The notes below the pieces were generated by a model. The model had not been told where the DNA came from. It saw only the letters and a list, made by a program, of their open reading frames with translations, and searched no databases. A DNA stretch of 29,166 nucleotides from a virus, in the IMG/VR virus record IMGVR_UViG_3300028610_000294, positions 1 to 29,166 of that record, one strand, 5' to 3'. Made by a program: the position numbers and the translations under genes. How positions within the stretch are numbered: position 1 is the stretch's first letter; every line of letters begins with the position of its first letter. Below are positions 6,740 to 18,406 of the stretch, piece by piece.

Positions 6740-7145
6740 ACGAAAGACCGTTTCACAACTCAAGAAAAAGCTTTGGAAGCCCTTTAGCCTCTGGACTAAA
6801 CTTCGATACTCAGAAGACGGCGTCTATGTCGATTGCTATACTTGTTCACAACGGTTAAAGATTGGCACCTCTAACTGTCAAGCAGCCCACTTCTTACCGA
6901 AAGGCGGCTATCCTGCTCACTACTTCAATATAGACAACGTGCGCCCTGGTTGTTATAGGTGCAACATTCATCTGTCAGGCAACTCCGAAGTATTCCGCAG
7001 ACGTCTCATAGAAGAAATTGGATTACCACGTGTCGAAGCCTTATGGGCTACCCGCAAGGAAGTGAAGCAACTGCGGCAGGATTGGTACTATAGAATGCTC
7101 GATTTCTACACCGCAGATATTAAGAGACTTGAAGACTCATTCTGA
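6732..7145 (+). CDS. ninG: NinG-like recombination endonuclease
   Basis: The ATG at 6732 (MSKRKTVSQLKKKL) overlaps the end of the previous gene by eight bases; the frame is open further upstream but only as a shadow. The 137-residue protein shows the NinG layout: C35-x-x-C38, a His in NCQAAHF (H53), the central FNIDNVRPGCYRCN with C74 and C77, and the downstream SGNSEVFRRRLIEEIG. In lambda, NinG (Rap) is a structure-specific nuclease acting on recombination intermediates. It is shorter than lambda NinG, with a briefer basic N-terminal arm. Together with the Rad52-type protein and SSB it completes a recombination set. Confidence 0.85.
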   Translation: MSKRKTVSQLKKKLWKPFSLWTKLRYSEDGVYVDCYTCSQRLKIGTSNCQAAHFLPKGGYPAHYFNIDNVRPGCYRCNIHLSGNSEVFRRRLIEEIGLPRVEALWATRKEVKQLRQDWYYRMLDFYTADIKRLEDSF

Positions 7146-7170
7146 GTTGATATAAGAACATCTGTTGGGT

Positions 7171-7280
7171 GACGCTTTGACCCCGAAGGACCGAGAGAAT
7201 ATGATACCTTTCAAATTACAACGGAATGCATTAGGCTTGTGCTCTCTCGGCACTCAAAGCGGCTTGGTGTATTCCGTTGT
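7171..7280 (+). ncRNA. Predicted H-type pseudoknot RNA in the leader of the 7299 gene
   Basis: The 153-base gap between NinG and the next gene contains three pairs of complementary arms. CGCTTTGA (7173-7180) pairs with TCAAAGCG (7254-7261). CCGAGAGA (7191-7198) pairs with TCTCTCGG (7243-7250). Both nest to form stem 1. ACAACGGAATGCA (7218-7230) lies inside that stem's loop but pairs with TGTATTCCGTTGT (7268-7280) outside it, forming stem 2: 13 pairs with one G-U. The order C-A-B-A'-C'-B' is a pseudoknot. With wobble pairs stem 2 could run to 20 pairs (7218-7237 with 7261-7280), competing with the edge of stem 1. An AGGG ribosome site (7288-7291) and the ATG at 7299 follow directly, so translational control is a natural guess. 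I know of no named RNA family that matches; a DNA-level role such as an origin is also possible. Confidence 0.6.
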
Positions 7281-7298
7281 TCTTTGTAGGGTTCATCA

Positions 7299-7970
7299 AT
7301 GGACTGGCTAAGAATACAAAACAAGACGTTACGCGGTGAGGCATATATCTCCTGCGATACAACACAGCGCTCTACATGGCTTAGTCTCATGGGCTATTGC
7401 ACAGACAAAGAGAACAGCGGTGTCATAAAGAACTGTAAAGACTGGGGCAATCGTCGCTGGCTACAAGCCGCTGGCGTTGAGCTTGAGGAAGTTGAGCTTT
7501 CTTGTGCGCTCTACAAATGGGTTAAGTACGATCTGCATATACACGACTACCCTATGCAGGATCAAGAGAAGTGCGTCACCATGAGAGCATTAGCTTCCAA
7601 GGGCGGTAAAGCATCTGGTGTAGCTAGAAGGAAGCAAACGCTTCAAGCGAACGCTTTAACTGATAACGAAGCGAACGGTCGAACAGAGTTAGAGTTAGAG
7701 AAAGAGTTAGAGGGAGAGAGAGAAGTAGAGTCTTCTACTACGTCCCCTACACGAATGACTTTGATTGAGTTAAGAGCTATGGTTCATATAGGACCGGCTG
7801 AGGATGAAACATTTCAAAGCTTCTTAGATGCCTATAGCAAGAATGCTGTGCTTTGGGCTATCAAGAAGATACGCGAGAAGCGAGTGTATAACGGCTTCAA
7901 CGCCAGACCATTCCTGAGCAATTTCAGTGAATGGATAATCGAACACCAGGAAGAAATGAGGGCCAAGTGA
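7299..7970 (+). CDS. Putative replication initiation / replisome organiser protein
   Basis: A 223-residue protein. The N-terminal half (residues 1-85) looks like the winged-helix domain of phage replisome organisers: MDWLRIQNKTLRGEAYISCD, then a Leu-rich helix in the STWLSLMGYC segment. A low-complexity linker follows: SKGGKASGVARRKQ and an acidic run of Glu and Leu (ELELEKELEGEREVE). The C-terminal part (about 160-223) is helical, as in DnaD-like or O-like proteins. Such proteins bind the origin and load the helicase. The AGGG ribosome site sits seven bases before the ATG and just behind the pseudoknot described at 7171-7280. The assignment rests on architecture and context; no diagnostic motif was confirmed. 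Confidence 0.45.
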   Translation: MDWLRIQNKTLRGEAYISCDTTQRSTWLSLMGYCTDKENSGVIKNCKDWGNRRWLQAAGVELEEVELSCALYKWVKYDLHIHDYPMQDQEKCVTMRALASKGGKASGVARRKQTLQANALTDNEANGRTELELEKELEGEREVESSTTSPTRMTLIELRAMVHIGPAEDETFQSFLDAYSKNAVLWAIKKIREKRVYNGFNARPFLSNFSEWIIEHQEEMRAK

Positions 7971-18330: not shown

Positions 18331-18406
18331 TGGTTGCGCAGACAGGGGTCGAACCTGTAACTGTAAGATTTTAATCTAACGCTCTGTCCAGTTGAGCTAC
18401 CGCGCA
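18331..18406 (-). tRNA. tRNA with encoded CCA and an odd-sized anticodon loop
   Basis: Read on the reverse strand: acceptor TGCGCGG with CTGCGCA (one G-T), TA, D arm GCTC-AACTGGACA-GAGC, G26, anticodon stem TTAGA with TCTTA (T-T mismatch at 28-42), loop TTAAAA, variable loop CAGTT, T arm ACAGG-TTCGACC-CCTGT, then A73 and CCA (18333-18331). All four arms are present and CCA is encoded, so this is a real tRNA by shape. The anticodon loop has six bases in this register; pairing the flanking G-C instead gives an eight-base loop and a four-base variable loop. Neither gives seven, so amino-acid identity cannot be assigned. It lies opposite to all neighbouring genes and its CCA is followed after one base by the permuted element. 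Confidence 0.75.

Follow-up and report, generated by a model that had tools for sequence, protein, structure and literature searches.

A pseudoknotted leader RNA carrying a peptide-indifferent reading frame before phage replication and other early genes: a candidate translation-gated attenuator

Background

In attenuators of the trp type, which respond to amino acids, translation of a leader sets a terminator and the signal is sensed as stalling at particular codons; in the leader described here, by contrast, the codons are free to vary and not even the frame is constant. The replication operon of phage P4 is turned off by early termination in its immunity leader via a short complementary RNA (CI RNA), which is a processed RNA, and termination there is of the Rho type, unlike in the present leader. 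The repY-repZ switch of ColIb-P9 (Asano and Mizobuchi) reportedly relies on a pseudoknot that activates translation and on an antisense RNA that represses it, in a leader that lacks a terminator.

In the rep leader of I-complex plasmids, as far as the published description extends, a repB leader peptide precedes repA and its translation is needed (PMC10286972). The locus studied here shares with this system a leader ORF before a replication initiator as well as an RNA pseudoknot, although translation of our ORF is presumed; unlike in the plasmid leader as we understand it, the pseudoknot here would shut off the AUG, and the stem resembles a terminator. In the Gifsy-1 prophage, the available account of IsrK-orf45-anrP describes an upstream ORF that overlaps the following start codon with its stop (AUGA) and in which nucleotides are kept and amino acids are not, with alternative structures affecting the ribosome site of the ORF, and with both short and read-through transcripts (PMC4825925). 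Judged by that account, the two systems are alike in being phage leaders with a gene-coupled, peptide-indifferent ORF, and 26 of 42 members of the family reported below have an AUGA-type end at +4, whereas the ORF in our window ends at +13 with no AUGA overlap. In the Gifsy-1 case the short RNA apparently activates in trans and has its terminator upstream of the ORF (PMC4825925), whereas the present ORF crosses the terminator-like stem, the pseudoknot is of the loop-loop kind and other genes lie behind. By their descriptions, so far as these go, neither the IsrK-orf45-anrP nor the I-complex leader has an ORF threaded through a pseudoknotted terminator. No description of the leader RNA was found in the open-access literature, which is weak evidence of absence.

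Results

The window analysed is a viral DNA stretch of 29,166 nucleotides (IMG/VR record IMGVR_UViG_3300028610_000294). A gap of 153 bases (7146-7298) separates its NinG-like gene, which ends at 7145, from a replication-initiator-like gene, and the following features were located in and around it:

7129-7156, plus strand: putative promoter-like boxes, TTGAAG (7129-7134) and TATAAG (7151-7156), 16 bases apart
7165-7186, plus strand: hairpin H1, TTGGG (7165-7169) with CCCGA (7182-7186), one G-U pair; its loop holds A5'
7167-7170/7180-7183, plus strand: alternative pairing of H1, GGGT/ACCC
7173-7180, plus strand: A5', loop strand of helix A (helix search; own-versus-swapped test for A)
7186-7190, plus strand: AAGGA, a putative Shine-Dalgarno-like site read from the sequence; it lies between A5' and B5', 10 bases ahead of the upstream AUG
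7191-7198, plus strand: B5', strand of helix B, ending two bases before the upstream AUG (helix search; permutation test)
7201-7311, plus strand: leader ORF of 36 codons that crosses C and stops 13 bases inside the replication gene; presumably translated, given the kept open frame
7218-7237, plus strand: C5', 5' arm of the terminator-like stem (helix search; swap test)
7239-7253, plus strand: hairpin D, GTGC (7239-7242) with GCAC (7250-7253), its loop being B3'; read from the sequence, covarying in members
7243-7250, plus strand: B3' (helix search; permutation test)
7254-7261, plus strand: A3', abutting C3' with one base in common (helix search; swap test)
7261-7280, plus strand: C3', 3' arm of the terminator-like stem (helix search; swap test)
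7276-7287, plus strand: T-rich tail GTTGTTCTTTGT, an imperfect U-tract, with 6 T in 8 bases
7299-7970, plus strand: replication-initiator-like gene behind the leader, 223 aa (phrog_3926, E 3.5e-4)

The three long helices were found where the original prediction had placed them. Helix A (7173-7180/7254-7261, CGCTTTGA/TCAAAGCG) and helix B (7191-7198/7243-7250, CCGAGAGA/TCTCTCGG) are perfect over 8 bp each and nested with respect to each other, and both interlock with helix C (7218-7237/7261-7280), in which a 13-base helix extends with wobbles to 20 bp (15 Watson-Crick and 5 G-U). The length of the gap and the 8 bases between the end of C and an AGGG (7288-7291) were also as predicted. As all non-Watson-Crick positions in C (5/5) are G-U, the helix fits an RNA read from the plus strand. 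The supposition that three such pairs would hardly arise by chance was borne out: the observed gap reaches a descriptor score of 80.5, while the best of 90,888 dinucleotide shuffles of the gap scored 71.5 and none matched it, and the top score over 315 shuffles of the full window, with each strand scanned, was likewise 71.5. Folding of the gap without pseudoknots gave z = -5.5, with none of 200 shuffles as good.

The arrangement had been described as an H-type pseudoknot. The pseudoknot is real, but base 7261 is common to A and C, so that a third loop is lacking if A, B and C all form in full as a textbook H-type pseudoknot. A better fit is a kissing-loop layout. There are two small additional hairpins, H1 around A5' (matched by a hairpin at the same place in consensus members) and D around B3', and the pairing strands of A and B in the 3' half sit inside the loop of the terminator-like stem C. 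Since A3' runs gaplessly into C3', a continuous C-A-H1 stack with B alongside can be imagined. By ordinary energies, C alone is more stable in the window (-26.9 kcal/mol) than A and B together (-18.8 kcal/mol), suggesting that the pseudoknot could be transient. The original prediction had matched the structure to no named RNA family, and this held: a search of Rfam with the window returned only a tRNA gene elsewhere (18331-18406, minus strand, 50.9 bits; ARAGORN assigned it no anticodon), the gap searched at E up to 10 gave only two weak miRNA-hairpin matches, and 11 member loci gave none.

Relatives of the replication gene were not found by terminase or single-protein searches, but were found by an alignment with the proteins of three Akkermansia phages, to whose genes the replication-initiator-like protein is related. 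In two annotated Akkermansia phages the relative adjoins or precedes a DnaB-like helicase gene. DNA similarity to phage records was found neither for the window nor for a consensus member. Protein alignments, which drew in IMG/VR loci and a few genome contigs, yielded 152 distinct upstream regions of the gene, 29 with the element and 123 without. A gap could be defined in 120 of the non-members; it is at most 25 bases long in 105 of these, and an overlap of exactly 4 bases is seen in 38. The gene thus frequently begins at the stop codon of the gene before it, whose place the element takes in some phages. As for homologous gaps lacking the pairing, on which the original prediction had staked itself, most relatives have no gap to speak of, and long gaps mostly keep the pairing. 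L017 and L018 have the same A/B/C layout directly upstream of the same gene in unrelated sequence. The annotated Akkermansia phages lack the leader RNA, their gaps measuring 4-44 bases. Five loci with long gaps (L019, L104, L107, L143 and L262) were nevertheless not counted as members, and L264, with an H1-A-C layout about 120 bases before position 1501 and no upstream ATG, was left out. A separate observation concerns the Akkermansia-type phages, where a motif, CCCCAACTGACGCTTTTTT, stands directly before the ATG and is near-identical though the upstream sequence differs (L003, L004, L031-L034, L036, L038, L042, L044, L045 and L057); no pairing of a 5' arm with it was found in four loci examined.

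A degenerate pattern built from the commonest members matched 62 stretches in IMG/VR, some of them in contigs already known via the protein. The genes behind these matches belong to the window's family (19), are DUF1376-like (26), HNH-like (4) or of the MRIRTIKPEFF type (4), or are five others including a helicase-like protein; the remaining 4 have none or run into the contig end. Pfam DUF1376 was detected in three of four such proteins scanned, twice above the curated cut-off, while the HNH-like label was assigned from sequence, with no Pfam match for the one scanned. The element is thus portable and evidently moves between genes. One 17-kb contig, IMGVR_UViG_3300020042_010219 (L331, L345, L364 and L365), holds two leader copies in opposite orientation: one precedes a DUF1376-like start, the other an HNH-like gene. 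An exact helix-C pattern had no match in IMG/VR, and the consensus pattern, allowing exact matches only, had none in 387 Verrucomicrobiota genomes. From 93 candidate elements, of which 6 were set aside because no gene start could be assigned, deduplication over the last 105 bases before the gene left 49, and collapsing near-identical ones left 43 members.

Whether the window copy belongs to this family is answered differently by models and by architecture. A covariance model built from consensus members (L302-L363 and relatives; R1) gave 7.6 bits for the window (E 9.4), the fourth of four noise-level matches, and a second model (R2) gave no match at E 10 or less. R1 did find the divergent loci L015, L017, L018, L094, L165, L196 and L226, on which it was not trained, at E 0.002-0.034 and L073 at E 0.68, with no match in 32 non-member loci; R2 finds L300, while L130 and L134 stay at noise level. 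In L134, a second H1-like stretch (431-468, GGGCCGTTAGAAAGCC) also lies at noise level in the model search. One covariance-model search covered 57 of the 62 pattern loci (five from already represented contigs were left out), and since many of the 57 are also in the training alignment its matches are partly by construction. The window copy is therefore divergent, and its membership rests on architecture, position and ORF: H1 with A5', B5', C5', D with B3', A3' and C3' follow in order directly before an early gene homologous to that of other members, A3' abuts C3', the AUG lies beside B5', an open ORF leads from this AUG through C, and a T-rich tail follows C. That the structure is instead an independent or chance look-alike outside the family seems rather unlikely to us; the silence of the models speaks for it, as does L264, which precedes the same gene family and scores 79 with the same descriptor, so look-alikes do occur, whereas the shared site, helix order and reading frame, together with the absence of any match among the 90,888 shuffles, speak against it.

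The element is a real folded RNA with a pseudoknot. The covariation test used a sequence-only alignment of 32 consensus members, in which the proposed structure pairs in 91.6% of cells, against 36-47% when partners are slid by one to three columns. Covariation in related phages, suggested as a check by the original prediction, was evident in 27 of 37 pairs, the pseudoknot helices included, which show changes on both sides; 210 cells are double-changed compared with 78 in shuffles, and none of 500 shuffles equalled any of the five measures used. Double-changed pairs occur in A (4/7), B (5/6), C (15/17) and D (3/4), and are missing from the nearly invariant H1 (0/3); only 71% of cells are paired in B. 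Alignment-free tests, in which the strands of one member were paired with those of others, agree with this: own pairing exceeds swapped pairing for B (14.48 vs 12.23, 42 members), A (18.0 vs 15.0, 27 members) and C (35.6 vs 18.2, 27 members), with none of 20,000 permutations reaching the observed value in each case. The 27 members were picked from the 43 to limit redundancy, and the automatic best helix was sometimes not A (e.g. in L017, L134, L150, L303 and L323). In L015, L073, L094, L165, L196 and L300, B pairs no better than swapped. In most members inspected the H1 loop starts with TGA, TAG or TAA after a G (TGG in L349), and no upstream ORF ending in this loop was seen in the one case traced by eye (L122).

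The promoter-like boxes would put the transcript start just before H1. As a set, the boxes of the members score 7.29 against 6.52 in shuffled sequence (highest of 40 shuffled set means, 6.70), and in 35 of the 43 members they stop 11-19 bases short of A5'. A separate promoter scan did not list the TTGAAG/TATAAG pair and listed TTGACC-17-TATGAT at 7177-7205 instead, in a scan whose sites were no more numerous than chance. At the other end, after C, a stretch of 8 bases with at least 5 T precedes the gene in all 43 members and in 80 of 270 non-member loci, the latter still containing redundant entries. With C and the T-rich tail looking like a terminator in nearly all members, the element could be read as no more than an intrinsic terminator serving the gene upstream, to which A, B and the ORF would be incidental; we regard this as very improbable, given that A and B pass the swap tests, the frame is open in 41 of 42 members and the element precedes early genes of different kinds.

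The same combination of a 5' leader, a compact pseudoknot and a terminator is typical of riboswitches, in which case the H1/A/B/D fold would bind a metabolite and set the terminator, and GCCGT, GAGG and CCAATT are indeed largely unchanged in the consensus group. These letters, however, are not conserved in L015, L017, L073 and the window, though the architecture persists, and a ligand would leave the kept open frame unexplained. No unpaired letter common to consensus and divergent members was seen by eye, which also turns, less firmly than in the case of a DNA origin considered below, against the ligand response that the original prediction had listed among possible roles. We consider a riboswitch improbable. 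Ribozyme and type III antitoxin readings were set aside on general grounds, as conserved core letters or repeats are lacking.

The gap had been called non-coding but is not purely so: the 36-codon ORF (7201-7311) runs through the structure, and its frame is kept open though its peptide is not. Of the 43 members, 42 have an ATG next to or inside B5', L152 being the exception. From this AUG to 8 bases before the gene, 41 of the 42 are free of stops, against 10 and 31 in the other two frames; summed over members, the ORF frame holds 1 stop and the others 48 and 12, the +1 frame being worsened by the many ORFs that start ATGA, whose TGA counts among the 48. The ORF ends between -4 and +20 of the gene start in 40/42 members, most commonly at +4. 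An early stop interrupts it in L165, and in L337 (5410-5529, minus strand) it continues in frame into the DUF1376-like gene, making 302 codons in all, a fusion that is either natural or a sequencing slip.

A functional small protein encoded by the leader ORF, with folding secondary, would account for an open frame with an upstream ATG in 42 of 43 members. It is hardly credible in the face of the strong covariation of the structure and of the way in which the sequence is read: two reading frames are used for the CCAATT motif (18 and 12 members), and near-same RNA cores are read in different frames, which give unrelated peptides, e.g. in L302 and L162. The open frame is therefore kept and the peptide is not, so that conservation as protein-coding sequence, named beforehand as an outcome contrary to a structural RNA, applies to the frame alone. 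What is conserved would seem to be a path along which ribosomes can travel from the upstream AUG, across the stem, as far as the gene. Against this, Shine-Dalgarno sites are not overrepresented before the upstream AUGs (9/42 at -5 kcal/mol or lower). Ribosome sites at the gene starts are not clearly poorer in members (11/43 vs 52/115 in non-members; means -4.39 and -4.25), so that these values do not point to a dependence on restart.

Discussion

We suggest that the element is probably the leader of the replication-gene transcript and acts as a translation-gated attenuator. The proposal draws on the structure and its covariation, the kept upstream AUG, frame and end point, the T-rich tails and the position before early genes; the promoter, termination, translation, restart and order of events are its conjectural parts. 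Transcription would begin just before H1, and the upstream AUG would be the first start site to emerge. A ribosome starting there in time would translate the leader ORF and hold C open, allowing polymerase to pass the U-tract, and would end at or just past the replication-gene start and restart there. With no timely ribosome, the loop of C would be transcribed, A3' would capture the H1 loop and B3' the AUG region, and the resulting pseudoknot would shut the upstream start site and join the arms of C, so that transcription stops or the message stays silent. The balance might be set by ribosome supply, by a protein or by another RNA. Gating of the gene behind, one of the roles originally envisaged, appears the most likely of them. 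A feature of an origin in DNA form, also among those roles, does not agree with members preceding HNH-like, helicase-like and other genes, with the G-U pairs or with the frame being kept open.

A related reading, possible but on the whole unlikely, places the control in trans: a short terminated leader would pair through its loop with H1 and the AUG region of new leaders and shut them off, providing copy control or superinfection immunity. The strands of A, like those of B, are mutually complementary, which would let two molecules pair with each other. Within the kissing helix A, double changes fall in the central pairs (columns 10/100 and 11/99, with 14 and 13 double-changed sequences), the ends being nearly constant, and L227 and L228, otherwise similar, differ coordinately in A. 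There is also a precedent in IsrK-orf45-anrP, where the terminated form of a phage leader acts, via an upstream ORF, on the read-through message of that leader (PMC4825925). Pairing in cis, however, accounts equally well for the covariation. More doubtful still is the extension of trans control to a widespread RNA family, in which the kissing-loop letters of A and B around the AUG would be type-specific addresses, changed in step on both strands, and the short leader of each phage type would silence only early genes of its own type. If true, this would amount to RNA-only immunity or copy control resembling plasmid incompatibility, carried by a portable cassette before early genes.

In the translation-gated attenuator that we favour, a sequence-indifferent ORF would be threaded through a pseudoknotted terminator, in an RNA family that is absent from Rfam and precedes early genes of several kinds in many uncultured phages. 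Both the leader RNA and the ORF escape routine genome annotation. The leader would be a defined case of a phage deciding the expression of its replication gene through ribosome arrival alone.
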